From Nordella sp. HKS 07 (GTDB taxonomy: Bacteria; Pseudomonadota; Alphaproteobacteria; Rhizobiales; Aestuariivirgaceae): a stretch of DNA of 64,000 nt. The stretch is from assembly GCF_011046735.1 (NCBI RefSeq), contig NZ_CP049258.1, positions 3,118,001-3,182,000 of the forward strand. Direction: 5' to 3'. A program made the position numbers and the translations under genes. Below are positions 15,163 through 35,804 of the stretch, one piece after another; the stretch's first letter is position 1, and each line of letters begins with the position of its first letter. Under the pieces are notes generated by a model, which made no database searches, was not told where the DNA came from, and saw nothing but the letters and a program-made list of their open reading frames with translations.

Positions 15163-16139
15163 GTCACGACCGGGCATGCCGAGCCGTGGCCAGGCAGAGC
15201 GCGGTCAAGCGTCACGGCAATCGTCCGGCATTCCGGGCGGGCAAAGGAGCACCTTTGCTGGAACGGGCAGCCCTCAGGGAGGTTGGCCGGGTTGGGTGGC
15301 TGCCCTGCGATCGTCCGCAAGGGATGGCGCGCGGCGCCAACACGCAGATGCGGGATCGCCGCCAGGAGGCCTCTTGTATAGGGATGGCGGGGCGCCCGGA
15401 GGACCTCCAGCGCAGGGCCCGACTCCATGATGCGACCGGCATACATCACGAGGATCACGTCGCAATTCTGGGCTACGACGCCCACATCATGCGACACCAG
15501 GATCATCGACATGGAGGTCTTGTCCTTGAGCCCGGCCAGCAATGTCAGGATCTGATCCTGGATGGTCACGTCGAGCGCCGTTGTCGGCTCATCGGCAAGC
15601 AGCAGGTCGGGCTCGGCGCCGACCGCCATGGAGATCATCACGCGCTGGCGCATGCCGCCGGAGAGTTCGTGCGGATAGAGTCTAAGCCGCTCCCTCGGCG
15701 CCGGGATGCCGACGCGGCTCAGCAGATCGGCTGCCAGCTCCCGGGCTGCCTTGGACTTGATCGCAAGCTTGATGCGCAGTGTTTCGCTGATCTGGTCGCC
15801 AATGGTGAATACCGGATTGAGGCAAGCGGCCGGATCCTGGAAGATCATCGCGATCTCCTTGCCGCGGATCCGTCTGACCTCCTGCCTGGTGAGGCTTCGC
15901 CAATCGCGTCCTTTCCAGTGAACGCTTCCGCCGACGATCTCGCCTGGATGCGGGACGAGTCCCAGGAGTGCTCGCAACGTGATGCTCTTGCCGCATCCCG
16001 ACTCGCCCAGAAGGCCGATGCTCTGGCCGGGTGCGACGGCGAAACCGACCCGATGTGCGGCGAGAAAGGCGCCGTGGCGGTTGGTAAGGCCGACCGAGAG
16101 GTCGCGCACATCGAGGAGTGGCGTCGATCGCTGCATCAT
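15159..16139 (-). CDS. Dipeptide/oligopeptide ABC transporter ATP-binding protein (DppD/OppD-type)
   Basis: Second ATPase of the peptide importer, 326 residues. Key motifs are GESGCGKS (Walker A), [14 protein letters not shown] (Q-loop), [16 protein letters not shown] (signature), [16 protein letters not shown] (Walker B/D-loop) and LVSHDVGV (H-loop). The oligopeptide C-terminal Cys cluster ([14 protein letters not shown] ... GSACPVV) is present. The start at 16139 forms ATGA with the stop of the permease gene upstream; the longer open frame to 16286 runs antiparallel through unrelated codons and is not supported. Confidence 0.92.
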
Positions 16140-17017
16140 CGGCTCCTTCCATCGAGCCTGTCGGCCAGCCCGTCGCCAATCAGGCTGAAGCCGATGCCGG
16201 TAATGACGATGACAAGGCCCGGCAGGGTGGATATCCACCAGGCATTGAGCAGGTTCTTCTGTCCTTGCGCGATCATTTCGCCCCATTCGGCGGTCGGCGG
16301 CGCGGCTCCGAGGCCCAGATAGGAGAGTGCCGCCAGCGTCAGGATGTTGAGCACGATGTCCGACATCGAGAAGACGAGATTGGCGCGGAGCAGATTGGGT
16401 ACGGCATGCACGAACACGATGCGGGGCGTGCTGTAGCCGAGCGTCTCGGCATTGCGGATATATTCCCGGCGCCGGATCGCCAGCATTTCACCGCGCGAAA
16501 GCCTGGCATAGAGGGCCCAGCTCACCGCGATCACGCCGATATATGCGCCGGCGAGGCCCGGCCCGACGATCGCGGCGATGGTGAGGATGAGAATGATGAA
16601 GGGGAACGAGATCACCAGATCCACGACGCGCATGATGATCGTGTCGATGATGCCGCCGAAATAGCCGGCGAATGAGCCGACGAGGAGGCCGATGACGAGC
16701 GAAACATAGGTCGTGACGATGCCAAAGGTGAGGTCGACCCGCCCGGCATGCAGGACACGGCTGAAGATGTCGCGGCCGAGATCGTCGGTGCCGAAAAGAA
16801 AGTGCGCCGAAGGAGGCTTCAGGACGTTCATGAGGTCCGTGGCATTGGGGTCTCTCAGTCCGAGAAAGGGGGCGGCGAGACTCAATGCCGATATGGCGGT
16901 GACAATCGCGATGCCGGCAACGAGCGAGATCGTGGCCCATCGGCGGTCGAGGAGGGCGCGCCGCTGCAGACGCGACCAGACGCCGTCCGCTATGCCGTGA
17001 GGGGGCTGAGATTTCAT
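16136..17017 (-). CDS. Peptide ABC transporter permease (DppC-type)
   Basis: Inner-membrane permease of 293 residues with about six membrane segments. The N-terminal region has the OppC_N-like helix (RRWATISLVAGIAIVTAISAL) and the FGTDDLGRDIFSRVLHAGRVDL motif that marks DppC/OppC proteins. The cytoplasmic EAA loop is EYIRNAETLGYSTPRIVFVHAVPN, which contacts the ATPases. Start and stop overlap the neighbouring genes by 4 bp on both sides (ATGA), showing tight translational coupling. Confidence 0.92.
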   Translation of the reverse strand: MKSQPPHGIADGVWSRLQRRALLDRRWATISLVAGIAIVTAISALSLAAPFLGLRDPNATDLMNVLKPPSAHFLFGTDDLGRDIFSRVLHAGRVDLTFGIVTTYVSLVIGLLVGSFAGYFGGIIDTIIMRVVDLVISFPFIILILTIAAIVGPGLAGAYIGVIAVSWALYARLSRGEMLAIRRREYIRNAETLGYSTPRIVFVHAVPNLLRANLVFSMSDIVLNILTLAALSYLGLGAAPPTAEWGEMIAQGQKNLLNAWWISTLPGLVIVITGIGFSLIGDGLADRLDGRSR

Positions 17018-17952
17018 TGACGGATCCTCGGGTCGAGGATCGCGTAGCAGACATCGACCAGGAAGTTGGCGGCCACGACCACGACGCCGAAGACCAGGGT
17101 CAGTGCCACGATAACCGGATAGTCGCGCTGCACGATCGCTGCGACCATGAGGGACCCGAGGCCCGGTATGGAGAACACGTTCTCGATGACGACGGCGCCC
17201 GAAATCAGATACCCGACATTGACGCCGAGGATGGTCAGCATCGCGATGAGCGAGTTGCGCAGCACGTGCTTGAAGAGGACGCGGCCTTCGCTGAAACCGC
17301 GCGCCCGCGCCGCTTCGACGAATTCCGCGGTCAAGGTCTGGATGATGCTCGCCCGCAAGCTGCGCAGCAGGATGGGGGTGAGATAGAGAGCGATGCTCAC
17401 CGCCGGTAGGGTGAGGCTCGCCATGTAGCCGGTCAATCCTTCACCCAGTCCGGATGTCGGGAAGAATTTGAGACGTATGCTGAACAAGAGAACAAGCAGG
17501 AGCGCGGTCCAGAATGATGGCATGCAGAACGCAAGCGTGCTGAGCGCCCTTACGACATGATCGGCCATGAGGTTTCGCCGGACGGCGGAGAGAAGCGCCA
17601 GGGGGACGGCGATGACGAGCGAAATCAGTATGGCATAGGTGACGAGCGCCAGGCTGTGCACCGCACGCGCCGCCACGATGGGGCCGATGGCGGCACGCTG
17701 GAAGAGCGACTCGCCGAAATCGAGCCGTAGGGCGTTGCGCAGGAAATCGAGATACTGCGTCACCAGTGGCTTGTCGAGTCCGAGCTGCGTGCGCAGGACG
17801 GCGATCGCCTCATCGGTAGCGCGCGAGCCCAGCATCACCCGGGCCGGATCGCCGGGCACGAGATGGATCACGGAGAATGCGGCCAGGGTAATGACGATCA
17901 GCACTGGAATGGATTGTGCCAATCGTCGGCCGGTGAAAACTATGAGCGACAA
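17014..17952 (-). CDS. Peptide ABC transporter permease (DppB-type)
   Basis: First permease of the peptide importer, 312 residues. It carries the DppB N-terminal pattern FTGRRLAQSIPVLIVITLAAFSVIHLVPGDPA and LGLDKPLVTQYLDFL, and the EAA loop EFVEAARARGFSEGRVLFKHVLRNS. GAVVIENVFSIPGLGSLMV follows, as in all members. It lies 33 bp downstream of the substrate-binding protein gene, the usual dppA-B-C-D-F order. Confidence 0.92.
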   Translation of the reverse strand: MSLIVFTGRRLAQSIPVLIVITLAAFSVIHLVPGDPARVMLGSRATDEAIAVLRTQLGLDKPLVTQYLDFLRNALRLDFGESLFQRAAIGPIVAARAVHSLALVTYAILISLVIAVPLALLSAVRRNLMADHVVRALSTLAFCMPSFWTALLLVLLFSIRLKFFPTSGLGEGLTGYMASLTLPAVSIALYLTPILLRSLRASIIQTLTAEFVEAARARGFSEGRVLFKHVLRNSLIAMLTILGVNVGYLISGAVVIENVFSIPGLGSLMVAAIVQRDYPVIVALTLVFGVVVVAANFLVDVCYAILDPRIRQ

Positions 17953-17985
17953 AAGTGGGTCTCCGTGATCCGGCCCGTTCCGGGC

Positions 17986-19533
17986 TCAGGGGGCAAGCCA
18001 GACATTCTCGAGATTCCACCATTTGACCGGCAAGGTCTTGAAGCCTTTCACGTCGGCGGACACGGCTGTGCGCGCCTTGATGAAGAACAGCGGCACGGCA
18101 GGAAACTCGGCCATCACCAGCCGCTGCAGCTGATGGAAGGCCGCCTGGCGCTTGTTTTCATCGATGGTACTGCCAGCCTGCTTGACGAGTTCGGTCGCCT
18201 GCTTGTTGTTCCAGCCGGTCCAGAAGGATTCGATGCCGCCGGTGAAGTCGAAGAAGACGACCGCGAGATTGTCGTCGGACAAGGCGTCGCTCGAGAGGCC
18301 GGATCCGGTGAAGGTAAAACAGCTCTCATCGCCGCTGCCCCAGCGCGTCCAGATCGTGCCCGTATCGACCGCCTGGACCTCCATCTTCACGCCGATCTTG
18401 GCCCATTCCGATTGCAGGATCTGGGCCTGCTGGAGCTCGAATTGGTCGCCCGCGACAATGAGGCAGGAGAAGGTGAAGCCTTGCGGACTCTTTGATTTGG
18501 CCAGCGCCTCTTTCGCTTTATCGAGATCATAGGGATAGGCGGGGACCGTCGGATCCCAGTATTTGACCTTGGCGATAACATGGTTGGCGACTTCGCCCGC
18601 CCCATGCATGAGGCTCGCGAGCATTGCTTCCTTGGGCGTTGCGTAATTCAAGGCCCGGATGACCTCCGGATCGTCGAACGGGGCTTTGCGGCTGTTGAAC
18701 CAGACGGCATCCCACGCCATGACGTCTTCGATCTGGACATCGACATGGGCCAATGCCGCGATGCGTTCGATCTGCGAATAGGGGACTTCGGTCGCGATCT
18801 GCGCTTCGCCGGATTCGACCTTGAGCATGCGGCTGTTCTCGTCCGGCACGTAATCGATGACTATGCGGTCGAGATAAGGCTGTCCGCTCTTCCAGTAATA
18901 AGGATTGCGTTCGAGCACCAGGCGTTGGCCGCGCACCCATTCCTTGACCACGAAGGGGCCGGATCCGATCGGCTGCTCGCTGAAGGCTTTGTCGCCCATT
19001 TTTTCGTAGGCCGCCTTTGGCACGATCGAGGGAATGAAGGTCGAGAGATAGTCCAGGAAGGCGCCTTGCGGCTCCTTGAGCTTCACGATGAAGGACGAAG
19101 CGTTGGCGCATTCGGTCGCGGCGATCGCGGCACCGAAGCCGCCATAGTTGGTATTCACCTTCGGATCGGCAAAGCGGTCGATGGAGAATTTGACATCATT
19201 GCAGGTCAAAGGGTCGCCATTGGAGAATTTCACGCCCTCGCGCAGCGTGAATGTCCAGGTCTTTGAATCATCCGACACGGTCCAGCTCGTGGCGATGGCG
19301 GGCTGCGGCACCGGCGCGTCCTGCGTTTCCACCAGCGTCTCGAAGATCTGAACGATCATGAAGATCGACCCGTTGTCATTGGCGCCGATCGGATTGAGCG
19401 TCAAAGGCTCGCTGTCCCGCGCCATGGTGAGGGTGCCGCCTTTCTGTGGCGTGGCATCCTGTCCGTGAGCGTTGATTGGAAGGATGAGAGCGCTCGCCAT
19501 GAGCGCCAGTAGTCCGCCGAGCCGTGCAGTCAT
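17986..19533 (-). CDS. Peptide ABC transporter substrate-binding protein (SBP_bac_5, DppA-type)
   Basis: Periplasmic solute-binding protein of family 5, 515 residues, for dipeptides, oligopeptides or similar amphiphilic compounds. A Sec signal peptide (LLALMASALILPINAHGQ) precedes GGTLTMARDSEPLTLNPIGANDN, the family opening. The middle has WTFTLREGVKFSNGDPLTCNDV and PIGSGPFVVKEWVRGQRLVLERNPYY, both typical. The start ATG at 19533 follows GAGGAGGCCGCA. It is the promoter-proximal gene of an operon running through DppF to the cupin and SDR genes. The upstream region has a GTAC-N9-GTAC site at the expected transcription start, so local MocR control is inferred. Confidence 0.92.
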   Translation of the reverse strand: MTARLGGLLALMASALILPINAHGQDATPQKGGTLTMARDSEPLTLNPIGANDNGSIFMIVQIFETLVETQDAPVPQPAIATSWTVSDDSKTWTFTLREGVKFSNGDPLTCNDVKFSIDRFADPKVNTNYGGFGAAIAATECANASSFIVKLKEPQGAFLDYLSTFIPSIVPKAAYEKMGDKAFSEQPIGSGPFVVKEWVRGQRLVLERNPYYWKSGQPYLDRIVIDYVPDENSRMLKVESGEAQIATEVPYSQIERIAALAHVDVQIEDVMAWDAVWFNSRKAPFDDPEVIRALNYATPKEAMLASLMHGAGEVANHVIAKVKYWDPTVPAYPYDLDKAKEALAKSKSPQGFTFSCLIVAGDQFELQQAQILQSEWAKIGVKMEVQAVDTGTIWTRWGSGDESCFTFTGSGLSSDALSDDNLAVVFFDFTGGIESFWTGWNNKQATELVKQAGSTIDENKRQAAFHQLQRLVMAEFPAVPLFFIKARTAVSADVKGFKTLPVKWWNLENVWLAP

Positions 19534-19584: not shown

Positions 19585-19603
19585 TGTACCGATAATAGGT
19601 ACA
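19585..19603. promoter_or_regulatory. GTAC-N9-GTAC operator between dppA-type and phzF-type genes
   Basis: GTAC at 19586 and 19599 (9-bp spacer) lie within a TGTACC-N7-GGTACA inverted repeat. On the minus strand a TTGACA (19638-19633) and a weak TAACTT-like -10 place the predicted dppA transcript start on this site, so a repressor bound here could block it. The same spaced motif recurs near 23.6 and 25.7 kb. Confidence 0.55.
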
Positions 19604-19676
19604 AAGTTAAGTTAGAGGATGTAATATTTATCTGTCAATGGATTAAAAGCTGGAATACGAGAGAAATTGGGAATTT

Positions 19677-19706
19677 TTGACAAGTGCCCTGAGAACATGA
19701 CAATAA
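19677..19706 (+). promoter_or_regulatory. Candidate sigma70 promoter for the PhzF-family gene
   Basis: TTGACA at 19677-19682 and CAATAA at 19701-19706 with an 18-bp spacer lie 23 bp before the start codon at 19729. The -35 is a perfect match but the -10 is weak. Confidence 0.35.
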
Positions 19707-19728
19707 CCCCTCACAGGAACAGCAGCCC

Positions 19729-20514
19729 ATGAAGCTTGATGTCTTCCAGATCGACGCCTTTGCGAACCGCGTGTTCGCGGGAAACCCGGCCTTGGTTTGC
19801 TGTCTCGCTGACTGGCCTGACGATGGGCTGCTGCAGGCCATCACGACGGAGCACAATGCCCCGGTTGTTGCCTTCCTGGTGGACCGCGGTCAGCGCTTCG
19901 AGATTCGCTACTTCACGCCGCTTGGGGAATTGGGGTTGGTCGGACATGCCTCGCTTGCGGCGGCCCATGTCGTCCTGCGCATCCTGAGGCCCGATCTGCT
20001 GGAAGCAACCCTCGATCGCCGCAGCGGAACGCTCAAAGTCTCACGCTTGAGCGACGCATTGCTCGCCATCACGCTGCCCGTGCTTCCGGCGCGCGGTTGC
20101 GAGGCGCCGGCCGGGCTCGACGACGCCCTGGGCGTTGCTGTCACCGAAGTCCACGTCAATCAGAATCAGTATTTCGCTGTCCTGGCGCGCGAGTCCGATG
20201 TGTCATCGCTGGCGCCCGATATGGATATGCTGATGAAGCTCGACCGCGATGGCGTCATCGTCACCGCTCCTGGCGAACACAGCCAGTTCGTGTCACGGGC
20301 TTTCGCGCCGAAGGAAGGCCTGCCGGAAGATCCGGTCTGCGGTTCGGCGCATCTGGCGCTCGTGCCATACTGGTCGGCCCGCCTGGGTCGGACGGAGCAT
20401 CTGGCATTGCAGTTGTCGCCGCGCGGCGGCGAGTTGCATTGTTCGTTGCGCGGCGACGAGGTGCGGCTCGCCGGAAGATGCGTCCTCTATATGCAGGGCA
20501 CGATTCACATTTAG
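19729..20514 (+). CDS. PhzF family isomerase/epimerase-like protein
   Basis: PhzF-fold protein of 261 residues; known members isomerise phenazine precursors or act on diaminopimelate-like and other amino-acid-derived substrates. Conserved elements are VFQIDAFANRVFAGNPALVC at the N-terminus, the candidate catalytic Glu in ITTEHNAPVVAF (Glu45 of PhzF equivalent), GLVGHASLAAAHVVL, and near the end the pseudo-repeat SRAFAPKEGLPEDPVCGSAHLALVPYW. The start at 19729 has AGGA upstream. It is divergent from the peptide-transporter operon across the GTAC site and convergent with the TRAP genes. No phenazine genes are nearby, so it more likely belongs to amino-acid catabolism. Confidence 0.85.
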   Translation: MKLDVFQIDAFANRVFAGNPALVCCLADWPDDGLLQAITTEHNAPVVAFLVDRGQRFEIRYFTPLGELGLVGHASLAAAHVVLRILRPDLLEATLDRRSGTLKVSRLSDALLAITLPVLPARGCEAPAGLDDALGVAVTEVHVNQNQYFAVLARESDVSSLAPDMDMLMKLDRDGVIVTAPGEHSQFVSRAFAPKEGLPEDPVCGSAHLALVPYWSARLGRTEHLALQLSPRGGELHCSLRGDEVRLAGRCVLYMQGTIHI

Positions 20515-20527
20515 CTCGCTGCGCCGT

Positions 20528-21835
20528 TCATTTCGCCAGGCTGACCGGCTCATAGCCCATTTGCATGGGAAGCCAGAGCGTGATCTCGGGCACATAGACG
20601 AGGACGAAGAGGAGCGCGATCAGCACCACGAGGAAGATCCACAGCTCCTTGGTGATGGCCGCGAGCGGGATGCCCGAGACGCCAGCGATGAGGAAGACGA
20701 GCTCACCCATGGGTGGCGTAACGAGGCCGATCATCATGTTGATGATCGCAGTCACGCCGAAATGCACGGGATCGATGCCGAGATGAGCGACCGTCGGCAA
20801 GAGCATCGGCACGATAATGAGCAGCATGAGGAGCGAATCGAGAAAGGCGCCCAGGATCAGGAACAGGATATTGACCATGAGCAGGAACATGGCGGGCGAC
20901 ATGTCGAGCGAGCTCATCCATGCGCCCATGGCCTGAGGGATCTGCTCGGCAGCAACGATCCAGTTCATCACCAGGGCGCCGGCGATGGTGATGGCGACGG
21001 TAGCCGTCGCCCGCGATGACACGACGAGCACGTTGATGAGCGCGCGAAAATTGAGTGAGCGATACCAGAAGAGCGCGAGGATGAGTGCATAGCAGCTGGC
21101 GACGGCGGCTGCTTCGGTGGGTGTGACCGAGCCCGAATAGATGCCGCCCAGCATGATGGCGGGCAGCATGAGTGTTGGGAAGGCGTCCAGTGTCGTGGCG
21201 ATGGCCTGTCTCCGCGTCGGCCGCGCTTCGATCGGGAAGTTGCGCCGTTTCGCGATCGCCGCGACGACTGCCATCTGGGCGAGGCCGAGCAGAAGTCCCG
21301 GTATGACGCCAGCCATGAAGAGATAGCCGATCGAGGTGTTGGAAATGACGCCATAGATCACCATCGGGATGGATGGAGGAATGATCGGGCCGATGATGGC
21401 CGATGTTGTGCTGAGGGCGGCGGCGAAGCCGGGCGAGTAGCCCGCCTTCACCATCATGTCGACTTCGAGTTTGCCGGGTCCCGCGGCATCGGCAAGGGCG
21501 CTGCCGCTCATGCCGGAGAAGATGATGCTGGAAACGATATTCACGTGAGCAAGGCCGCCGCGTAGCCGGCCGACGAGCAGATTGGCGAAGCCGAACAGCC
21601 GGTCGGTGATCTTGCTTTCATTCATGATCTCGGCGGCGAAGATAAAGAGGGGCACCGCCATCAGGACGAAGTTGCTGTAAAGCCCGTTGAGGCTCTGCGA
21701 GGCGACAAGACCGATGTCCTGGCCGGTCATGAAGAGATAGATTATTCCCGCCGCGATCATGGCGTGGCCGATCGGCATGCCGAGGAACGACCAAGCGAAA
21801 AACAGCGCGAACATGACGAAGGCGGCAAGGCTCAT
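20528..21835 (-). CDS. TRAP transporter large permease (DctM-type)
   Basis: Large membrane subunit of a tripartite ATP-independent periplasmic transporter, 435 residues with about 12 membrane segments. Recognisable features are the N-terminal FALFFAWSFLGMPIGHAMIAAG, then VALPLFIFAAEIMNESKIT-like text (AVPLFIFAAEIMN), GMSGSALADAAGPGKLEVDMM (the conserved GxSGSA..DA motif), AALSTTSAIIGPIIPPSIPMVIYG, and the second-half repeat TPPMGELVFLIAGVSGIPL. It uses a sodium gradient to import small acids or polyols delivered by the binding protein. It is last in the dctP-Q-M operon. Confidence 0.93.
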   Translation of the reverse strand: MSLAAFVMFALFFAWSFLGMPIGHAMIAAGIIYLFMTGQDIGLVASQSLNGLYSNFVLMAVPLFIFAAEIMNESKITDRLFGFANLLVGRLRGGLAHVNIVSSIIFSGMSGSALADAAGPGKLEVDMMVKAGYSPGFAAALSTTSAIIGPIIPPSIPMVIYGVISNTSIGYLFMAGVIPGLLLGLAQMAVVAAIAKRRNFPIEARPTRRQAIATTLDAFPTLMLPAIMLGGIYSGSVTPTEAAAVASCYALILALFWYRSLNFRALINVLVVSSRATATVAITIAGALVMNWIVAAEQIPQAMGAWMSSLDMSPAMFLLMVNILFLILGAFLDSLLMLLIIVPMLLPTVAHLGIDPVHFGVTAIINMMIGLVTPPMGELVFLIAGVSGIPLAAITKELWIFLVVLIALLFVLVYVPEITLWLPMQMGYEPVSLAK

Positions 21836-21847
21836 CGGATCTATCCG

Positions 21848-22327
21848 TCAGAGATGTGTTTTCCAAGAGGAACTCAGGAGCCGGCGCAGTCTGATAGCGG
21901 CGCCGACGATGGCGGCGATCATGAAGATGCCGAAGCAGGAATAGACGATGTCGAAGGGGAGGTGCAGAACCATCGTGTGGCGCCGGCCGAGGAAGGCTAT
22001 GTAATCGAGAGTGCCGGGAAGGGCGGCGAGGAAAATGAAACCGACCGCGGCGGTGTTGGCGATGGCCACGGCACGCCGCGGCGCCGGCGGAAACTTCTGA
22101 TAGAGCACGTCGAAGATGATGTGCTGACGCTCGCTCACCAGAATGTCGCAAGACCAGAAGATCACCCAGATATAGGCAATCGAGCATATTTCGAGCGTCC
22201 AGGAGAGGGGAGCATTGAATACATAGCGGCTGAGGATCTGCGCCATGAACGACGCAAACATCACTATGAACATGGCGGCCGCCGCCATCTCAACAAATCT
22301 CTTCCACCGCGGGATCCAACGCTCCAC
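21848..22327 (-). CDS. TRAP transporter small permease (DctQ-type)
   Basis: Small membrane subunit of the TRAP importer, 159 residues and four hydrophobic segments. SRYVFNAPLSWTLEICSIAYIWVIFWS matches the DctQ family core (R.....P..W..E......W..F.G). It begins at a GTG at 22327 and ends 12 bp before the DctM start. It pairs with DctM to form the membrane complex. Confidence 0.9.
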   Translation of the reverse strand: MERWIPRWKRFVEMAAAAMFIVMFASFMAQILSRYVFNAPLSWTLEICSIAYIWVIFWSCDILVSERQHIIFDVLYQKFPPAPRRAVAIANTAAVGFIFLAALPGTLDYIAFLGRRHTMVLHLPFDIVYSCFGIFMIAAIVGAAIRLRRLLSSSWKTHL

Positions 22328-22383
22328 GTCACCGAGCCCTTATGTTTTGCCCACTTTGCGTGACGCCCCCGCCACCGAGGCGA

Positions 22384-23409
22384 TCAAGCGCCGGCTTTAT
22401 TGATGCGCTCGAGCATGCCCGTCGGCCAGGCCTTGGCGAAATCCGATTCGACGAATTTCTTCTGCACCTGATCGCGGAAGACGGCGACATCGGGTGTGGT
22501 GACCTTGACACCCTTGCTCTCGAAGAAAGCCTTGGCGTCCTTCTCAGTCGCGGCGACGCCTTCGTCGCTGAGCTTCTTGCCGGCCGCTTCCGCCTTCTCG
22601 ACGGCGGTCCTGAGCTCGGGCGAAAGGCCGTCCCAGAATTTGCCGGCGACGGTGACGAAGTTGCTGGCGATCAGATGGCCGGTGAGCACCACTTGCTCCG
22701 TCACTTCGTAGAACTTCGATGCCATCGCGTCGGGCAGGGGATTTTCGAGGCCGTCGATCGTGCCCGTTTGCAAGGCGAGGTAGATTTCCTCGAAAGCCAG
22801 CGGCGTCGCATTGCCGCCGAGCGCATTGCCGAGGAACAGCCAGGATTCCGCCGCCGGCATACGTAGCTTGAGACCGGCAAGATCGGCCGGCGTTTTTACA
22901 TCTCGCGCCTGTCGCAATATGACGTGTCGGGCTCCGAAATACTGGCTGCGCAGGATCTGCACGCCGATGTCCTTCGCGATCCGTGCTTTGTACTCGGTAC
23001 CGATATCGCCGTCGAAGACCGCATCGAGATGCGCCGCGTCGCGGTAGATGTAGCCAGTGGTGAAGATGGAATATTCCGGAATGAGGGCGGCATAGTCCTG
23101 CGGTGTAATCACGCCGCATTCGAGATTGCCACGCTGCATGGCCTCGATTTCGGTGCCCTGCGCAAACAAGGTTCCGTTGTAGTGGATCTGCACGTCGAAG
23201 GCGCCGGGGGCTTCCTGCTCCAGTACTTCCTTGAATTTGACGAGGCCTTTGGATTGCCAGTCGTCCGCGGGGCCAGGGGTCGACATGCGTAGCTGCGTAG
23301 CGGCGCGCCCGGCCTTTATGACGAAAGGCATGGCGAGCGCGGCTGTGGCTGCGGTCAATATGGTCCGACGCGAGAAATGATGCCGAGATGATGTGTGCTT
23401 GTCGGTCAT
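22384..23409 (-). CDS. TRAP transporter substrate-binding protein (DctP-type)
   Basis: Periplasmic DctP-family binding protein, 341 residues. A twin-arginine-like leader (HFSRRTILTAATAALAMPFVIKAGRAA) replaces a plain Sec signal. The mature protein has QLRMSTPGPADDWQSKGLVKFKEVLE, the DctP ligand Arg region LAGLKLRMPAAESWLFLGNALGGNATPLAFEEIYLALQTGTIDGLENPL (conserved Arg and Asn that grip a carboxylate), and EQVVLTGHLIASNFV. The start at 23409 was chosen over 23481 because the extension is not family-like. It is the first gene of the TRAP operon and divergent from ridA, sharing a regulatory region with GTAC half-sites. A carboxylate ligand is likely. Confidence 0.92.
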   Translation of the reverse strand: MTDKHTSSRHHFSRRTILTAATAALAMPFVIKAGRAATQLRMSTPGPADDWQSKGLVKFKEVLEQEAPGAFDVQIHYNGTLFAQGTEIEAMQRGNLECGVITPQDYAALIPEYSIFTTGYIYRDAAHLDAVFDGDIGTEYKARIAKDIGVQILRSQYFGARHVILRQARDVKTPADLAGLKLRMPAAESWLFLGNALGGNATPLAFEEIYLALQTGTIDGLENPLPDAMASKFYEVTEQVVLTGHLIASNFVTVAGKFWDGLSPELRTAVEKAEAAGKKLSDEGVAATEKDAKAFFESKGVKVTTPDVAVFRDQVQKKFVESDFAKAWPTGMLERINKAGA

Positions 23410-23592
23410 GGGTCTCTCCCTATTTGGTCTTTTGTACGCCCCTGACGATGGAGCCCCGGACGCAGTCAGGATTGTCCTCATAAAAGTACATTACTCGGGG
23501 TCAAACACAAGAAAAAAGTAGGCTGACATTCTTGATTAGAAGAAAGCTTTTAAAATAAGGTATTTGAGTATGATGAATATGAGAGTTAAGTA

Positions 23593-23613
23593 TTGTACTT
23601 GACGGAAGTACAA
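23593..23613. promoter_or_regulatory. GTAC-N9-GTAC operator upstream of ridA / dctP-type genes
   Basis: Perfect inverted repeat with arms TTGTACTT and AAGTACAA around a 5-bp centre, giving GTAC at 23595 and 23608 (9-bp spacer). A TTGACG hexamer at 23599-23604 lies inside it and could be the -35 of the ridA promoter, 52 bp before the ridA start. Isolated GTAC half-sites also lie at 23434 and 23486, nearer the divergent dctP-type gene. Confidence 0.6.
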
Positions 23614-23664
23614 AATCACGTTTTGCTGAAACACGGGGAGACTAACGACAACAGGGAGATTCAC

Positions 23665-24072
23665 ATGACAGCGCAGCGCGGTGCCACCAAGCGAGCGATC
23701 AGCACCAGCAAGGCGCCGGCACCCACGGCGAGTTATTCGCAAGCGATTGTCGCCAATGGCCTCGTCTGGGTATGCGGGCAGGTCGGCAACACCGCCGCCG
23801 TCACGGGCAAGGCGATCAGCGATGACATCGGCGAGCAGACCCGGCAGGCCATCCGCAACATCGAGATCATCCTCGCCGAAGTGGGCTCAGGCCTGGCGGA
23901 TATCGTGATGGTCCACGTCTTCGTCGACACGCTGATCGACTTCCCGGCATTCGATGCCGCGTTTCAAGAGGTGATGCCGAAGCCTTTCCCGGCGCGCGTT
24001 ACGGTGTCGGGCGGCGTCGATCCGTTCCGTGTCGAGATTGCTGTGACGGCCGTTGTCCCGCAGGGCTCTTGA
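23665..24072 (+). CDS. RidA family (YjgF/YER057c/UK114) protein
   Basis: Reactive intermediate deaminase A family, 135 residues. RidA hydrolyses enamine/imine intermediates released by PLP enzymes or amino-acid oxidases. The fold is seen in ASYSQAIVANGLVWVCGQVGN, the helix ISDDIGEQTRQAIRNIEIILAEVG, then IVMVHVFVDTLIDFPAFDAAF, and the active Arg in FPARVTVSGG, with the acidic end VEIAVTAVVP. The start ATG follows AGGGAG. It sits beside a MocR regulator and divergent TRAP genes. Together with the second RidA gene at 35.8 kb it hints that amino-acid imines are formed in this pathway. Confidence 0.9.
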   Translation: MTAQRGATKRAISTSKAPAPTASYSQAIVANGLVWVCGQVGNTAAVTGKAISDDIGEQTRQAIRNIEIILAEVGSGLADIVMVHVFVDTLIDFPAFDAAFQEVMPKPFPARVTVSGGVDPFRVEIAVTAVVPQGS

Positions 24073-24093
24073 GTGAGCCGGAGCCGGGTTCGC

Positions 24094-25512
24094 CTAAACG
24101 ATAGGAAGTGCGGCGGCGTGATCGGAGTGCACCAGCTCCGCCAGGGTCGCCAGCGCCTGCTTGACACGCGCCTCGCTCGTTTCGCTGCACAGGCACAGAC
24201 GCACCCCGCCCGGATCTTTACCGGGCACGACTGTGAAGGCATCGCCGGGCGTGACCGCGACGCCGCGTGCCAAGGCGTCGGCGACGAAAACTGCGCTGCG
24301 CATGTCGGAGGGCAGCCTCAGCCAATAATGCATCGAGGTGGGCGCCGGTCCGGCTTCACCAAGGATCGATGCCGCGAGCAGTTGGCGGCGGCGGGCGGCG
24401 GCGGTCTGAAATTTGATCGCCTCGCGGCCCGCACCGCTATTGATCAGATGGGTGGTGAGTTCGAGGAGCAGAGGCGACACCATCGCCGTCGTCGCCCGCG
24501 TCGAGGCGCGCATGGATTTATGGAGTCGCGGCGGCACGGCCATGAAGCCTATCCGCAAGGTCGGCGCGATCGATTTCGACAGGCTGGTCAGATAGATGGT
24601 GATGTCGCGCGCCAGCTGGCAATAGGGCGTGGCGCGCGGCTCGACCAGAAATCCATAAGCGTCGTCCTCGACGATCAGCACATTGTGGGCGCGCGCGATG
24701 CGCACGATGTCCTGGCGGCGCGCGAGGCTCGCTGTCGCCGTCGTCGGATTGTGCAGCGTCGGCATCGTATAGACGAAGCGCGGCCGATGCGACAGGCAGG
24801 CTGCTTCGAATGCTTCCGGCACCAGGCCTTCACTATCGATCGCCACGGGCATCAGCCGGATGCCGGTCAGGCGGCCGACCGACAAGGCGCCGGGCCAGGT
24901 CAATTCCTCGGTGAGCACCGTATCGCCGGGCCGTGCCAGCGCCAGGAAGATGGTCATCAGCGCCGTCTGGCCGCCGGACACGGCATAGATGTCGTCGGCC
25001 GGCGCGTCGACCCCGAGCTCGCGCAGCCAGGCGGCGCCGGCTGTCCGATGCTCCAATTGTCCTTGCGGCGGCTGGTAATGGGCGAGGTCGTCGAGATCCG
25101 GCTTCTTCGCGATGGCTTTGAGCGCTTCGCGCAAGCGTTCGCCCGTGCCGTCCGACAGAGGTTCGTTGAGGCTGAGATTGATCGCGTCTTCGCGCTGCAT
25201 CAAGGGCAGATAGAGCCGCTCGAGGGGGCGCAGCACCTCGCGGTTCGAGATGAGGTCGTTGTCCTTGTCGCTCGCCAGCACGAAAGTGCCGCGCCCGACA
25301 GTGCCGCCGATGAGGCCGCGTCGGCCGGCTTCCGCATAAGCGCGCGACACTGTGCTGACCGCGACGCCGAGGCGTTTGGACAATTCCCGATGTGTCGGCA
25401 ATTGCGCACCGGGCGCCAGACGGCCGCTGCGGATTGCCTCTTCCAGTGTATCGGCAAGCGAAGTGGCGACATCGTCACGCCGGACGGGCCAGCCGGAATA
25501 CCACTCGCTCAT
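24094..25512 (-). CDS. MocR-type (GntR/aminotransferase) transcriptional regulator
   Basis: PLP-dependent regulator, 472 residues: an N-terminal GntR winged helix (residues ~14-80; QLPTHRELSKRLGVAVSTVSRAYAEAGRRGLIGGTVGRGTFV) joined to a class I aminotransferase-fold domain. The latter shows SGGQTALMTIFLALARPGDTVLTEELTWPG, YTMPTLHNPTT (PLP-site Asn), VEDDAYG (Asp that binds the pyridine N) and LTSLSKSIAPTLRIGF with the Schiff-base Lys. Such proteins sense PLP or amino-compound adducts. Here the gene sits centrally among transporters and PLP/RidA enzymes, convergent with ridA and divergent from the carbohydrate ABC operon. I infer that it binds the GTAC-N9-GTAC sites; this is unproven. GTAC half-sites at 25539 and 25582 lie before its own start. 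Confidence 0.9.
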   Translation of the reverse strand: MSEWYSGWPVRRDDVATSLADTLEEAIRSGRLAPGAQLPTHRELSKRLGVAVSTVSRAYAEAGRRGLIGGTVGRGTFVLASDKDNDLISNREVLRPLERLYLPLMQREDAINLSLNEPLSDGTGERLREALKAIAKKPDLDDLAHYQPPQGQLEHRTAGAAWLRELGVDAPADDIYAVSGGQTALMTIFLALARPGDTVLTEELTWPGALSVGRLTGIRLMPVAIDSEGLVPEAFEAACLSHRPRFVYTMPTLHNPTTATASLARRQDIVRIARAHNVLIVEDDAYGFLVEPRATPYCQLARDITIYLTSLSKSIAPTLRIGFMAVPPRLHKSMRASTRATTAMVSPLLLELTTHLINSGAGREAIKFQTAAARRRQLLAASILGEAGPAPTSMHYWLRLPSDMRSAVFVADALARGVAVTPGDAFTVVPGKDPGGVRLCLCSETSEARVKQALATLAELVHSDHAAALPIV

Positions 25513-25633
25513 TCAAACCCCATATTGTTTCTATGCAGGTACATTTTCCGGACGCGGCCCATTGGCAATGATCGAATCTTAGTACAATCAGCGCTAGAAA
25601 CAAGAAATCCCGCATAAATGTCAACTCATTCGA

Positions 25634-25686
25634 TTGACAGCCCCGCCTGCACAGGCGTACAACAAGATTGTACTCAGGATCAGTAC
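25634..25686 (+). promoter_or_regulatory. Promoter with triple GTAC operator for the carbohydrate ABC operon
   Basis: TTGACA at 25634-25639 is followed after 18 bp by TACAAC, a candidate -10 at 25658. Three GTAC sequences at 25657, 25670 and 25683 are each separated by exactly 9 bp, and the first overlaps that -10. The start codon of the binding-protein gene is at 25749. The array matches the sites at 19.6 and 23.6 kb, with an added third half-site. Confidence 0.55.
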
Positions 25687-25748: not shown

Positions 25749-27089
25749 ATGAATCAGCGAATTCATCGGCAAATCCATGCGCTTTCCGATTCCCATCTGG
25801 CTGGAAAGCTGTCACGCCGCGCCTTTGTCACGCGGCTCCTTCAAATGGGCCTGACGACCGCGGCGGTCGCTTCCATTGCTGCCGAGTTCCGCCCGGCCTA
25901 TGCGGCGAGCAAGGGCCTCAAGGGTCATGTGCGCTTCCTGGTCGGTCCATGGTCGGAACGCGAGGTCGACAATCACAAGCATATCGCCGCGGCATTCAAC
26001 GCGCTTCACCCCGACGTGACCTTCGATTTCCGCCTGTATCAGTGGGCGACAGCGGCCCAAGAGATCAGTGCCTCCGTGGCTGGGGGCGGCCATGATATCT
26101 ATATGACGACTGAAAGCTCGTATCCCGATTATGAGGCCGGTACGGGCTTCGAGGACTGGACCGGGCGGATCAATGATCCGGCGTTCGCCACCGAAAAGGC
26201 CAAGTACCTCTATTGGGATCGTACCGAAAGCTATGGACCAAAACTTCTCGGCCTGCCCATCAGCTGGCATGTCGAGGATGCCTTGTTCGTCAATATGGAT
26301 AAGGTCCGCGCCGCGGGGCACGACGAGAACTTCGTCAACAGCTGGGACAAATTCGTCGATTGCATCGGCAAGATGACAAAGGAAGGTGAGACCTATGGTT
26401 TGGGGATCGGCATTCAGCTCGGCGGCTATGGCGAATGGTATCAGCGCTTGCGCTCCGCCGGCGGCTCCTATCTGACACCGGATCTCAAGGCCCCCAATGT
26501 TAATCGCCCGGAAGTGGTGCAGGTCACCGAGCAGATGGCAGATCTCTTCAAGAAGGGCATAGCGCCGCCGCTCGGCACCTACAGCTATGACGCGGCGCCT
26601 GCCGCTTTCGCCGCCGGCAAGCTCGCCATCTTGTCTTCGGATCTTGCCGGCACGACCGTGTTGCCGAAGAAGGTCCCCTTCGACTGGAAACTTCTGCCTT
26701 ATCCGCCCGGGCCGGTCGCCCAAGTCAATTTCAACGACCTGACCTATTACATGACCAATGCCAAGTCGCCGGACAAGGACCTGTTGTGGGAAGTCATGAC
26801 ATTCTGGACGAACGGTACCAATGATGCGTTTTGGGCGGACAATTCTGGCACCTATCCGGCGCGCTCCGATGCCGCCCAGAATGGCTACGGCACCAATGCC
26901 GCGCCGCAGCTTGCCGAGGCCTTGCCGCTATTCGTAAAATACGCGGTCGGCATCGAGAACTTCCCGCAATGGGCGACTGTCGAAGGTCTGGCGGAGGCCG
27001 AGATCCAGAACTGCTATGCCGGCAAGGTGACGGCGGCCGAGGCCGTCGCCAATGTCGAGAAGATCGTGAAAAGCGAAGTCGGACTCTAA
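25749..27089 (+). CDS. Carbohydrate ABC transporter substrate-binding protein (family 1)
   Basis: Extracellular sugar-type solute-binding protein, 446 residues. A leader with an Arg pair (LSRRAFVTRLLQMGLTTAAVASIAAEFRPAYAA) suggests Tat-like export. The mature part has VRFLVGPWSEREVDNHKHIAAAFNALHPDVTF, GGGHDIYMTTESSYPDYEAG, LGLPISWHVEDALFVNMDKV and GTYSYDAAPAAFAAGKLAI, a family-1 layout. The start ATG at 25749 was chosen because a longer reading would place the operator inside the coding region. First of a nine-gene operon that includes an apiosidase-like and a lactonase-like protein, so the ligand may be a branched-chain pentose or its glycoside; that is an inference. Confidence 0.88.
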   Translation: MNQRIHRQIHALSDSHLAGKLSRRAFVTRLLQMGLTTAAVASIAAEFRPAYAASKGLKGHVRFLVGPWSEREVDNHKHIAAAFNALHPDVTFDFRLYQWATAAQEISASVAGGGHDIYMTTESSYPDYEAGTGFEDWTGRINDPAFATEKAKYLYWDRTESYGPKLLGLPISWHVEDALFVNMDKVRAAGHDENFVNSWDKFVDCIGKMTKEGETYGLGIGIQLGGYGEWYQRLRSAGGSYLTPDLKAPNVNRPEVVQVTEQMADLFKKGIAPPLGTYSYDAAPAAFAAGKLAILSSDLAGTTVLPKKVPFDWKLLPYPPGPVAQVNFNDLTYYMTNAKSPDKDLLWEVMTFWTNGTNDAFWADNSGTYPARSDAAQNGYGTNAAPQLAEALPLFVKYAVGIENFPQWATVEGLAEAEIQNCYAGKVTAAEAVANVEKIVKSEVGL

Positions 27090-27106
27090 GCACAGGGAAT
27101 GCCGGC

Positions 27107-28063
27107 ATGAGTCTTGATGCCGCGACTATGCCAAGCGCGCATCCCGGCCGGCTGCGCCTGTCGGCCGAAGACCATCGCCGCTTGCGGCGCAAAGCGAGGC
27201 TCGGTCGCGAGATCCTCGGCTGGGCGTTTCTCGGACCGATGTTTGCGTGCTTCGTGATTTTTCTCGTGCTGCCGGTCATCGGCACCCTATGGTGGAGTTT
27301 GCGCTCGGGCGGCCTCGGCGGCGATACGAAATTCGTCGGCCTCAAGAACTTCACTGACCTTCCCGATATTGTGGGCGCCTCGACGGCAATCGGGAACACG
27401 CTGCTCTTCGCGCTGATCTCGGTGCCGCTGATCCTCATCGGCGCGCTCGCCATTGCGCTCATCCTGGCGCGCATCGAACGCGGCGGCTCGGTCTACCGCT
27501 TTCTCATCTATTTCCCGGTCCTCGTGCCGGGCGTCGTCGCCGCGCTCATCTGGCTGTTCATGACCAATGTCGACTTCGGGCTGTTCAATCAGGTGGCGCG
27601 ATGGTTCGGCGGCAGGCCGGTCGTTTGGCTCGGCGCCGACAACGCCTTGATCGTCCTCGCCATCCTCGATGTCTGGCGCAATGTCGGCTATTGGGCGCTA
27701 TTCTTCGTCGCGGCGATCATTGGCCTGCCCAAGGAGCTTTATCAGGCAGCCGAGCTCGACGGGGCTCCCGCCTGGGCGCGCTTTCGTTATCTCACCTTGC
27801 CATTGTTGCGCCGGATCATCTTTTTCGCGGTCGTCGTGGCGACGATCTGGGGCTTGCAGGTCTTTGACACAGCCCTCGTTCTCACCAGCGGCGGCCCCGG
27901 TACGGCGACGACGACGGTTATCTACCGCATCTGGCTCTATATGTTCGGCGCCACCAATAAGATCGGCATTGCCTCGGCGATCTCTCTGGTTCTCATCGTG
28001 GCCATTCTCCTCCTCACACTGGTCCAGATGCGGCTTCTGCGCGGCAGGAGAGGGGGAGACTGA
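27107..28063 (+). CDS. Carbohydrate ABC transporter permease (MalF/UgpA-type)
   Basis: Inner-membrane permease of 318 residues with six membrane segments. Features are LGPMFACFVIFLVLPVIGTLWWS at the N-terminus and the EAA loop ELYQAAELDGAPAWARFRYLTLPLL, which docks on the ATPase. The start ATG at 27107 has AGGGAA upstream; the open frame that extends to 26831 runs back into the binding-protein gene and is rejected. It ends with TGA overlapping the next ATG by 1 bp. Confidence 0.92.
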   Translation: MSLDAATMPSAHPGRLRLSAEDHRRLRRKARLGREILGWAFLGPMFACFVIFLVLPVIGTLWWSLRSGGLGGDTKFVGLKNFTDLPDIVGASTAIGNTLLFALISVPLILIGALAIALILARIERGGSVYRFLIYFPVLVPGVVAALIWLFMTNVDFGLFNQVARWFGGRPVVWLGADNALIVLAILDVWRNVGYWALFFVAAIIGLPKELYQAAELDGAPAWARFRYLTLPLLRRIIFFAVVVATIWGLQVFDTALVLTSGGPGTATTTVIYRIWLYMFGATNKIGIASAISLVLIVAILLLTLVQMRLLRGRRGGD

Positions 28064-28935
28064 TGGTAGCGGCGGCTCATCATAGTGCTGAAGAACATGC
28101 GCGCATCAGGCTGAGGCGCCGACGCTGGAAGGAATTCGCGCGGCATTGTGTTCTGGCGCTCGTCGCCTTCATCCTGGTGGCGCCTTTTTATTATGTTCTC
28201 CTTGCCTCGCTGAAGGACAGCACCGAGATATTCAGCTATCCGCCGAAATTGCTGCCGATCCCGCTCTATTTCGGCAATTACAGCGATCTCTTGTGGAACA
28301 CCGGCTTCCTGCGCTGGATGTTCAACACCTTGTTCGTCGCGACGAGCGTGACCGTGCTCAAGGTCTTCCTCGATTCGCTGGCGGGCTATGCCTTGGCCAA
28401 GATCGAGTTCACCGGCAAGCGCATCGTCTTCATGCTGATGCTGGTCCTGCTGATGGTGCCGATCGGGGCCTTGATCGTGCCGCTCTGGTCGCTCGTCTCG
28501 TCGCTTGGCCTCATCAACACCTATCTCGCTTTGATCCTGCCGCCCTTGGCCAATCCCTTGGGTGCCATACTGATGCGGCAATTCATCTTAAGTCTGCCGC
28601 GCGATCTCGAAAATGCCGCGCGCCTCGACGGATTGAGCGAATTCGCGATCTATTGGCGCATTGTTCTGCCGCTCATCAAGCCGGGCCTCGTGGTTCTTGC
28701 GGTCATCATCTTCACCGATCAGTTCATGAGCTTCACCTGGCCGCTGATCGCCACGACCAGCGACGAGTTGCAGGTACTGACCGTCGGCATTGCGGCGCTG
28801 CGCGCCCATGGCGGTGCCAATTATGGCTTGTGGTCGGCCTCCGCCGTCATGTCGCTGGTCCCGATCGGCATATTCTTCTTCGTGCTGCAGCGCCAGTTCC
28901 TGGCGCGTTCATTGGCCGGTGCCTTGAAACAATGA
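28063..28935 (+). CDS. Carbohydrate ABC transporter permease (MalG/UgpE-type)
   Basis: Second permease, 290 residues with six membrane segments. LALVAFILVAPFYYVLLASLKDSTEIFSYPP is the typical first segment and periplasmic loop, MFNTLFVATSVTVLKVFLDSLAGYALAKIEFTGK the next, and DLENAARLDGLSEFAIYWRIVLPLIKPG is the EAA loop. It overlaps the first permease gene by one base (TGATG). Confidence 0.92.
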   Translation: MVAAAHHSAEEHARIRLRRRRWKEFARHCVLALVAFILVAPFYYVLLASLKDSTEIFSYPPKLLPIPLYFGNYSDLLWNTGFLRWMFNTLFVATSVTVLKVFLDSLAGYALAKIEFTGKRIVFMLMLVLLMVPIGALIVPLWSLVSSLGLINTYLALILPPLANPLGAILMRQFILSLPRDLENAARLDGLSEFAIYWRIVLPLIKPGLVVLAVIIFTDQFMSFTWPLIATTSDELQVLTVGIAALRAHGGANYGLWSASAVMSLVPIGIFFFVLQRQFLARSLAGALKQ

Positions 28936-28945
28936 GGATCGTCCA

Positions 28946-30043
28946 TTGACCGCCATCGACACTCAAAACGAACCCGCCATAGAGCTGATCGAGGTCGCTA
29001 AACACTATGGCAATGTCACCGTGCTTGAGGGCGTCACTCTTACCGTAGCGCCGGGCGAGTTCATCGCTCTCCTCGGCCCCTCGGGCTGCGGCAAGAGCAC
29101 GCTCCTCAAGCTCATCGCCGGGCTCGACGAATTGAGCGGCGGCGAAATCTACATCGGTGGCCGCCTGGCCAATTACCTGAAGCCGGCCCACCGCGATGTA
29201 GCCATGGTGTTCCAGAATTATGCGCTCTACCCTCATATGACGGTGCGCGAGAATCTCGGCTTCCCGTTGAAGATGGGCGGTGTCGAGCGTGAGGTGGTGC
29301 GCTCCAAAGTGGAGGCCGCCGCCGGCCTGCTTCAGCTCTCAGGCCAGCTCGACAGGTTTCCTGATGAATTGTCGGGCGGCCAGCGCCAGCGCGTGGCGCT
29401 CGGCCGCGCCATCGTGCGCGAGCCCTATGTCTTCCTGATGGACGAGCCCTTGTCCAATCTGGATGCGCTGCTGCGTGTCGAGATGCGCGCCGAGCTTGTC
29501 AGGCTGCACAAGCGCGTCGGGCGCACGACAATCTATGTGACCCATGATCAGGTCGAGGCTATGACCATGGCGAGTCGCATCGTGCTGATGAATCGCGGTA
29601 TCATCCAGCAGGTCGGGACACCCGCCGAGATCTATTCGACACCCGCCAATACTTTCGTGGCGACCTTCGTCGGCAGTCCGCCGATGAATCTGTTCAAGGG
29701 CAACCTCGAGCGCAGCGGACAGCAGATGATGTTCCGAGGTCCATTCGAGGTCGTGATCGACACAATAGCGCCGGCCGGGCCGGTGACGATCGGCATCCGG
29801 CCGGAGCATGTCGAGGTCGGCGACAGCGAGGTCAAAGCAGGCCTTGCCGCCGTGATCGATGCTGTGGAACGCGTTGGCCCCGATGCCTATTTGCGGGCGA
29901 CGAGCCCTCAGGGTGTTGCGTTGACCGCCCGTGTTGATGGCGCGACGACACCGCGCGAAGGCGATCGCATCTGGCTCCGTTTTTCGACGCAGCATCTTCG
30001 CCTGTTCGATGCGGCGGGCAATCTCGTGATGGGGAAAGCGTGA
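28946..30043 (+). CDS. Carbohydrate ABC transporter ATP-binding protein (MalK/UgpC-type)
   Basis: ATPase of the sugar importer, 365 residues. Walker A is GPSGCGKST, Q-loop VFQNYALYPHMTVREN, signature DELSGGQRQRVALGRAI, Walker B FLMDEPLSNLDALLR, and H-loop YVTHDQVEAMTMA. The C-terminal ~120 residues are the TOBE/OB regulatory domain (TIGIRPEHVEVGD). The start is a TTG at 28946 with AGGA seven bases upstream; no ATG fits. It lies between the permeases and the glycosidase gene, co-directional. Confidence 0.93.
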   Translation: MTAIDTQNEPAIELIEVAKHYGNVTVLEGVTLTVAPGEFIALLGPSGCGKSTLLKLIAGLDELSGGEIYIGGRLANYLKPAHRDVAMVFQNYALYPHMTVRENLGFPLKMGGVEREVVRSKVEAAAGLLQLSGQLDRFPDELSGGQRQRVALGRAIVREPYVFLMDEPLSNLDALLRVEMRAELVRLHKRVGRTTIYVTHDQVEAMTMASRIVLMNRGIIQQVGTPAEIYSTPANTFVATFVGSPPMNLFKGNLERSGQQMMFRGPFEVVIDTIAPAGPVTIGIRPEHVEVGDSEVKAGLAAVIDAVERVGPDAYLRATSPQGVALTARVDGATTPREGDRIWLRFSTQHLRLFDAAGNLVMGKA

Positions 30044-30066
30044 TGATCGGGAGAGAGGGCCAGGCG

Positions 30067-31398
30067 ATGCATCGTTACCATCAGGTTCATCCAACTGAGC
30101 CGACAATGGGTAAAACGGTTCTTCCCGATCCGGTGCCGACGGCCCGCTATCCGCTGTCGATTTCTGCCGACCACCGGCGCCTGCTCGATGCCGATGGCCG
30201 GCAATTCCTGATCCAGGGCGATGCCGCCTGGTCGCTCATCGCCAATCTCGATTACACCGATGCCGTGCGGTATCTCGACGACCGCAAGGCAAAAGGCTTC
30301 AACACCATCATCGTCAGCCTTGTCGAGCATTGCTATTCGCAGGACCCGCCGCGCGATCTGGCGGGGCGCGAACCTTTCACCACACCTGGCGACATGAGCA
30401 CGCCCAACGACTCCTATTTCGATGCGGCCGAGCGCGTCCTCGCTGCTTCAGCCGAGCGCGGCATTGCCGTCATCCTCGCGCCGGCCTATATCGGCTACCG
30501 GCGCGACCGCGGCAAAGGCATCTCGCCGCATCTCGACGGTTGGTACGACGAGATCGTTGCGACGGGTCCCGAAGGCTGCCGCAAATATGGGAATTATCTC
30601 GGCCGCCGCTTCGGACGTTTCGCCAATATCATCTGGTGCATCGGCGGCGATTGGCATCCGGAGAAGACGCGGCCGGGGCTCGATGCCGTGGCCCAGGGTC
30701 TGCGTGAAGCGGGCGTGCGTACGCTCTTCACCGGCCATACGCATCCCGAATTCTCGGCCGCGGATACTTTCGAAGGCTCCGACTGGCTCGACCTCAACAT
30801 CACTTACACGTACGGCATCGTCCATCGCCTGCTGATCGAGGACTGGCAGCGCCGGCCGGTCATGCCGTTCTTCCTCATCGAGTCGACCTATGAAAGCGAG
30901 CACAATGCCAGCCATCAGCAGATCCGCCGCCAAGCCTATTGGTCGGTTCTGTGTGGCGGCAACGGCCATTGCATGGGCAATCATCCGATCTGGCTTTTCG
31001 GCGAGGGCTGGCAAGATGCGCTCGACCTGCCGGGCTCGCTGGCCATGGAGCGGTGGGGAGATTTTTTCCGCAAGCTGCCCTGGAGCGAACTCGTGCCCGA
31101 CCTCGAGCGCGAGCTGGTTTCAGCCGGTTTGGGCGAAGCGCGCGGCCTCGACCGTGTGACGGTAGCACGCACCGCCGATGAGCGTCTCGGTGCTGCATAT
31201 CTGCCCGTCTGCCGACCCGTCGAAGTGCAGCTTGGCAGCCTGAAAGGCCCCAGGCTTTCCGTCGAATGGTTCGATCCGGCGAGCGGCCGGCAGGTTTCCG
31301 GCGGCATCTTGCTGGCAAAAGGGTCGGCGGTGCTGGCGCCGCCTTTCACGGAAGATTCAATGCTCGTTCTGAGATCGATCGGGGACGATGATGATTGA
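30067..31398 (+). CDS. DUF4038 apiosidase-like glycoside hydrolase (GH140-related)
   Basis: Predicted (beta/alpha)8 glycosidase, 443 residues, of the DUF4038 group that includes the GH140 D-apiosidase. Recognition rests on the N-terminal substrate-loop text LDADGRQFLIQGDAAWSLIANLDYTDAVRYLDDRKAKGFNTIIVSLVEHCYS, then the IIWCIGGDWHP strand and FFLIESTYESEHN, where the Asp and Glu are candidate catalytic residues. The C-terminal ~100 residues look like a small beta-domain (VEWFDPASGRQVSGG). There is no signal peptide, so it would act on imported glycosides in the cytoplasm. I chose ATG 30067 (AGAGAGG upstream); GTG 30040 or ATG 30043 are alternatives overlapping the ATPase gene. Apiose specificity is inferred from the family and the next gene. 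Confidence 0.72.
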   Translation: MHRYHQVHPTEPTMGKTVLPDPVPTARYPLSISADHRRLLDADGRQFLIQGDAAWSLIANLDYTDAVRYLDDRKAKGFNTIIVSLVEHCYSQDPPRDLAGREPFTTPGDMSTPNDSYFDAAERVLAASAERGIAVILAPAYIGYRRDRGKGISPHLDGWYDEIVATGPEGCRKYGNYLGRRFGRFANIIWCIGGDWHPEKTRPGLDAVAQGLREAGVRTLFTGHTHPEFSAADTFEGSDWLDLNITYTYGIVHRLLIEDWQRRPVMPFFLIESTYESEHNASHQQIRRQAYWSVLCGGNGHCMGNHPIWLFGEGWQDALDLPGSLAMERWGDFFRKLPWSELVPDLERELVSAGLGEARGLDRVTVARTADERLGAAYLPVCRPVEVQLGSLKGPRLSVEWFDPASGRQVSGGILLAKGSAVLAPPFTEDSMLVLRSIGDDDD

Positions 31399-34499: not shown

Positions 34500-34526
34500 A
34501 ATGACAGACCGGGAAGGGGAGGCGTC

Positions 34527-35786: not shown

Positions 35787-35804
35787 TAGAACGGAAGGGA
35801 AGCG

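Follow-up and report, generated by a model that had tools for sequence, protein, structure and literature searches.

In the portion of the EnuR/EhuR literature drawn on here (PMC8739950), this protein is described as a MocR repressor of ectoine catabolism, acting at a palindromic operator that overlaps a sigma-70 promoter and that conforms to the consensus ATTGT-N6-ACAAT. More generally, the main text of PMC5320631 reports that MocR regulators bind both direct and inverted repeats, gives inverted two-box motifs for 150 MocR regulons (Table 2), and places PhzF, RidA, Opp/Dpp and TRAP genes among the targets of such regulators.

The window analyzed here (the whole stretch of 64,000 nucleotides from Nordella sp. 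HKS 07) contains a gene for a regulator of this kind, together with neighboring genes of these same types. Comparison of DNA sequences within the window and across related genomes indicates that a rare palindrome shared by several of the intervening regions, TGTACYG-N5-CRGTACA, is very probably the operator of the MocR protein encoded at 24094-25512, and that this protein most likely represses the genes that it controls.

The regulator and the surrounding gene clusters

The genes of interest are arranged as follows.

14137-19533, minus strand: Opp/Dpp-type ABC transporter operon (opp), with its solute-binding protein at 17986-19533 (PF00496)
19729-20514, plus strand: phzF (PF02567; TIGR00654 at 90.6 bits, cut-off 76.2)
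20528-23409, minus strand: TRAP transporter operon dctPQM (dctP by PF03480, dctM by TIGR00786, dctQ by place and tblastn)
23665-24072, plus strand: ridA (PF01042)
24094-25512, minus strand: mocR, GntR-aminotransferase regulator (PF00392 and PF00155, both over cut-off)
25749-36326, plus strand: sugar-type ABC transporter operon, encoding a presumed solute-binding protein, two permeases (by place and tblastn), a UgpC-like ATPase and enzymes

The mocR product joins an N-terminal GntR winged helix (PF00392, residues 18-78; 48.5 bits, cut-off 27) to a C-terminal class I aminotransferase domain (PF00155, residues 109-456; 114.2 bits, cut-off 19.7), the two domains by which the MocR/GabR subfamily of GntR regulators is recognized. 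A lysine in an SK motif, the putative PLP-binding residue, is present in all nine aligned regulator rows (a tenth row, L058, was mis-framed and left out), and this conserved residue and the aminotransferase domain together suggest that the regulator senses PLP. The best NCBIfam match is to EnuR/EhuR (EutR), at 417.9 bits and thus below the cut-off of 480; the score against PdxR (206.9, cut-off 320) is likewise below the family threshold.

The four remaining opp genes were named from their translations and by tblastn in loci L051-L053 rather than by HMM scan. The start of dctP was placed at 23409 from its ribosome-binding site (read by eye), which leaves a gap between ridA and dctP of 23410-23664. 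The enzymes of the sugar-type ABC operon comprise apiosidase-like and apionate-lactonase-like proteins (the latter at 553.9, below its cut-off of 750), a BhcC-like aldolase (321.6, below a cut-off of 690), a D-amino-acid dehydrogenase (440.6, cut-off 383) and a second RidA-family protein; the UgpC-like ATPase scores 446 bits against a cut-off of 432. At thresholds of E 0.001 and 1e-5, no Pfam or NCBIfam model matched the presumed solute-binding protein (25749-27089); its positional counterparts in loci L054 and L055 match SBP_bac_1. Taken as a set, these genes suggest that amino compounds, D-amino acids perhaps among them, are taken up and degraded.

A rare palindrome in the intergenic regions

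Five matches to GTAC-N9-GTAC occur in the window, compared to a mean of 0.04 in shuffled sequence: at 19586, 23595, 25657 and 25670, where an earlier sequence-only reading had correctly placed GTAC pairs with 9 bp between them, and at 3309, within a gene that has an AraC-binding-like domain. The window contains 61 copies of GTAC, which form five pairs 13 bp apart against an expectation of 0.06, all five being the matches just described; among the 16 self-complementary tetramers, GTAC is the only one to lie far above expectation at that spacing in the window. Simulation of the three intergenic regions with a first-order model produced the motif in 30, 65 and 10 of 20000 trials, odds from which the choice of a 9-bp spacing after the fact subtracts perhaps a factor of tens, not thousands.

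Across the genome (7.18 Mb, one contig), GTAC-N9-GTAC is found at 13 places, four of them within the 6-kb interval that spans the regions above; of the nine others, eight lie inside called open reading frames (one being a weak frame of 70 residues) and one between frames. The full form, TGTAC-N9-GTACA, accounts for three of the 13 places, all three being in the interval and between genes, which answers in the negative the question of whether this full form is equally common inside genes; the assignment of the ridA and ABC sites to reading frames by the gene-calling procedure was due to over-long TTG starts that lie in the site itself. The consensus with up to two mismatches occurs at 20 places in this genome versus 124 for the reversed pattern, and GTAC-N9-GTAC at 13 versus 140, in comparisons that are not matched for composition in that the reversed pattern contains the commoner CATG. 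No wider regulon is claimed, because 14 of the 17 near-consensus places outside the interval are inside called reading frames and only three (L202, L204 and L207) are between them.

GTAC is its own reverse complement, and a pair of such boxes could therefore represent either a direct or an inverted repeat. In the ten sites that were aligned (three from the window and seven from relatives), the flanks are mirrored, each site having 7 or 8 symmetric pairs out of 9. This identifies the repeat as inverted, and the ten sites conform to the 19-bp consensus TGTACYG-N5-CRGTACA. The three predicted operators of the window, and a single half-site, are the following.

19585-19603, no strand assigned: predicted operator O1, TGTACCGATAATAGGTACA, between opp on the minus strand and phzF on the plus strand; 8 symmetric pairs out of 9; kept in L051 and L052
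23594-23612, no strand assigned: predicted operator O2, the weakest, TGTACTTGACGGAAGTACA, between dctP on the minus strand and ridA on the plus strand; 7 symmetric pairs out of 9
25538-25545, minus strand: single half-site, reading GGTACATT on the plus strand, 26 bp before the mocR start codon
25669-25687, no strand assigned: predicted operator O3, TGTACTCAGGATCAGTACA, between mocR on the minus strand and the sugar-type ABC operon on the plus strand; 7 symmetric pairs out of 9; kept in L051 and L052

O2 has the lowest score (16.3, versus 23.6-30.3 for the other sites, using a matrix built from these same sites). The GTAC at 25657, which had been read as a third box of the operator upstream of the ABC operon, was dropped from it because it consists of a G followed by the first three bases of a -10 box (TACAAC), at which L051 and L052 read TATAAC. 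The half-site is identical in all four aligned sequences (window, L051, L052 and L053), with differing flanks, and is a possible third box that may have a role in autoregulation; its distance from O3, measured from 25539, varies, being 131 bp in the window, 110 bp in L051 and 125 bp in L053.

Conservation of the palindrome in related loci

A scan with the regulator across the genomes of 84,980 species returned 200 relatives; the analysis covered the loci of the best 80 of them (1.60 Mb). GTAC-N9-GTAC was found in four of these 80 loci, each with a close orthologue, in which the regulator is 93% (L051), 92% (L052), 69% (L053) and 56% (L055) identical to that of the window, and all seven of their sites display the full form TGTAC-N9-GTACA. 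L051 and L052 have one site in the gap separating mocR from the sugar-type ABC operon and another in that separating phzF from opp; in L053, which has another gene order, one is located between opp and mocR (a site with which O3 aligns) and one before phzF. In L055, where mocR alone was found of 17 window genes (besides a generic SDR match of 33%), the site separates a solute-binding-protein gene from an SDR-mocR unit. The presence of sites at mocR in differing gene orders indicates that the palindrome follows the regulator and not one fixed neighbor. L051 and L052 are close kin, and the evidence amounts to about three lineages. With the exception of O2, the sites are thus conserved at orthologous promoters and also at differently arranged promoters of orthologous loci, such that the regulator and its neighbors share a conserved inverted repeat at their promoters, as is characteristic of an inverted-repeat MocR regulon.

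The three remaining close loci (L054, L056 and L057) have no exact site. L054 (54% identity) has a degenerate copy at the aligned place; L057 (43%) has no site, despite its BhcC and DadA neighbors; and the other 73 of the 80 loci (33-38%) contain no GTAC-N9-GTAC. BhcC-like and DadA-like genes lie beside the regulator in L051, L052, L054 and L057 (the DadA-like gene of the last being cut by the contig end). In L056, a Mesorhizobium metagenome contig, positions 9983-10873 match residues 183-472 only of the regulator (75%), with no operator, and look like a remnant that lacks the DNA-binding domain. An order-level search for orthologues at E 1e-95 or better returned one of 297 genomes, the window's own, and a class-level search at E 1e-92 returned seven of 385, six being homologues of 40-43% identity; matches on plasmids came from six Aminobacter records at about 40%. 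The 35 loci L160-L194 contain no GTAC-N9-GTAC.

At the level of whole genomes, G054 (7.2 Mb) and G056 (7.1 Mb) each contain three GTAC-N9-GTAC places, two of which are at the mocR locus, and G055 (5.8 Mb), which has no close orthologue (best regulator match E 2e-67), contains none. G057, a member of the genus (87% complete; best regulator match E 2e-18), contains five, one of which has the full form and lies between genes (L219, 5224-5242); genomes with a close orthologue are therefore not the only ones to carry the motif. The neighbors of this last site are a partial proline-racemase-like reading frame and one with a molybdopterin-dehydrogenase FAD domain, and the same small contig also holds a BhcC-like gene (37%).

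The full-form site of G057, whose genome has no close orthologue of MocR, would also fit binding of the palindrome by a different regulator (an IclR-family protein, for instance) whose gene is located elsewhere, MocR being only a neighbor. Some operators of IclR-family proteins are alike in form (CatR, GTAC-N7-GTAC; PcaR, with a CGATWATCG core), as given in the part of PMC8222616 drawn on here, and L055 holds both a GntR-FCD gene and a Crp-type gene. Against this stand the movement of the sites with mocR through differing gene orders and the eight scanned reading frames of L053, in which no regulator domain was found. None of the eight IclR genes of the window's genome is in the window, the nearest being about 160 kb beyond its end, and IclR control was rejected on that ground; we regard binding by another regulator in place of MocR as quite unlikely.

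Promoter architecture and a proposed mechanism of repression

Two of the palindromes occupy a fixed position relative to predicted promoters.

19609-19638, minus strand: predicted opp promoter, TTGACA (19638-19633), 18 bp, TAACTT
25634-25663, plus strand: predicted ABC operon promoter, TTGACA (25634-25639), 18 bp, TACAAC, the -10 box taking in the GTAC at 25657-25660

In both, the operator starts 5 nt after the -10 box and covers the predicted transcription start, and the arrangement TTGACA-N18-TAnnnY-N5-operator is found in six of six promoters (those of opp and the ABC operon in the window, L051 and L052). The -10 box of opp is weak, with 3 of 6 bases matching. A promoter scan in which each hexamer must match at 4 of 6 bases and the -10 box must end in T reported neither promoter, since TAACTT and TACAAC fail its criteria. 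The scan did propose TTGACA-16-GACAAT toward phzF (19677-19704; 0.3 expected) and, on the minus strand, ATGACT-17-TACAAT (25695-25667; 0.3 expected), the latter overlapping O3; it found none in the ridA/dctP region. The suggestion that TTGACA-like promoters accompany all three sites holds at O1 and O3, and fails at 23595, where the sole such hexamer is a TTGACG lying within the site.

A site placed behind the -10 box and over the predicted start favors a repressor, and this is the main reason for which the regulator is called one. Some MocR proteins, such as TauR, are activators according to the main text of PMC5320631, and the MocR encoded here might similarly bind the palindrome and activate; the positions of the sites in all six promoters suit repression instead, and make such a role improbable. 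That the repeats arose by chance is very improbable given the simulations and the conservation of sites in relatives, which already contradicts chance for O1 and O3, even though GTAC-N9-GTAC also occurs in eight other genes and one other gap of the genome and O2 has no orthologue.

Under control by a MocR repressor, the protein would cover the point at which transcription starts from the opp and sugar-type ABC promoters, and would block RNA polymerase there; an amino compound reacting with the PLP cofactor would then release it, and the ridA/TRAP cassette would carry a weaker copy of the operator. From gene content, one might guess at a D-amino acid or a related amino compound as the effector. 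Several observations weigh against assignment of the palindrome to MocR: (i) O2 is without orthologous support and scores lowest; (ii) L057 is without a site, and L054 has a degenerate one; (iii) G057 has its full-form copy; (iv) the kinship of L051 and L052 brings the lineages down to about three; and (v) the -10 box of opp is weak, and the promoter scan passed over both promoters and proposed others.

The ridA/TRAP cassette itself is absent from L051 and L052, the sisters that possess the regulator, and in G054 and G056 no dctP reaches E 1e-30; the cassette may have been gained in the line of the window or lost from the sisters. The comparison turned up no orthologous cassette that has a site, and the three best TRAP relatives, L195-L197 (dctP 62, 55 and 55% identical; 13-15 kb each), contain no palindrome and no match to mocR or ridA. 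Thus, where the sequence-only reading had envisaged one regulator for three transporters, the opp/phzF and mocR/sugar-type ABC portions are well supported; for the ridA/TRAP portion, the evidence is the rarity of the palindrome, which suggests O2 as a further target.

A broader proposal, made tentatively and somewhat unlikely to hold in full, is that the regulator senses a D-amino acid (or a beta-hydroxy-D-amino acid), that through one compact palindrome it governs three unrelated transporter classes together with PhzF, both RidA-family proteins, the BhcC-like aldolase and the D-amino-acid dehydrogenase, and that the regulon grew as the TRAP-ridA cassette settled alongside and acquired an operator.

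Comparison with known systems

Footprinting provides an uncharacterized group of MocR proteins with a predicted operator and a small regulon, and it connects one set of transporters with a D-amino-acid dehydrogenase, RidA proteins and a PhzF-family isomerase, from which a few candidate substrates can be listed; between the window and its sisters, the local regulon changes by a single transporter cassette. The likeness to EnuR/EhuR, the best NCBIfam match, extends to a palindromic operator that overlaps a promoter and to a repressor (here predicted). The two systems differ in the operator itself, which is ATTGT-N6-ACAAT there and TGTAC-N9-GTACA in the ten sites here, and in a score that falls short of that family's cut-off; no ectoine genes were named among the genes scanned in this study.

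As in the present locus, regulons with PhzF, RidA, Opp/Dpp or TRAP targets are described for PdxQ, TauR, TauR2, GabR and unnamed MocR groups in the main text of PMC5320631, in which (its supplement aside) this gene set and operator were not found; nor did any paper among the literature matches listed name this operator or group. More distant relatives at about 40% identity (L163 and L164) resemble the window in that mocR is divergent from phzF and in having half-sites (such as TTGTATCGA and TCGATACA, identified by eye) near the mocR start, and differ in that their boxes are spread over about 50 bp, with no compact palindrome and no GTAC-N9-GTAC. The site and gene set of the window seem to be undescribed; its regulator is of a known kind, and would govern a MocR regulon with a palindromic operator.
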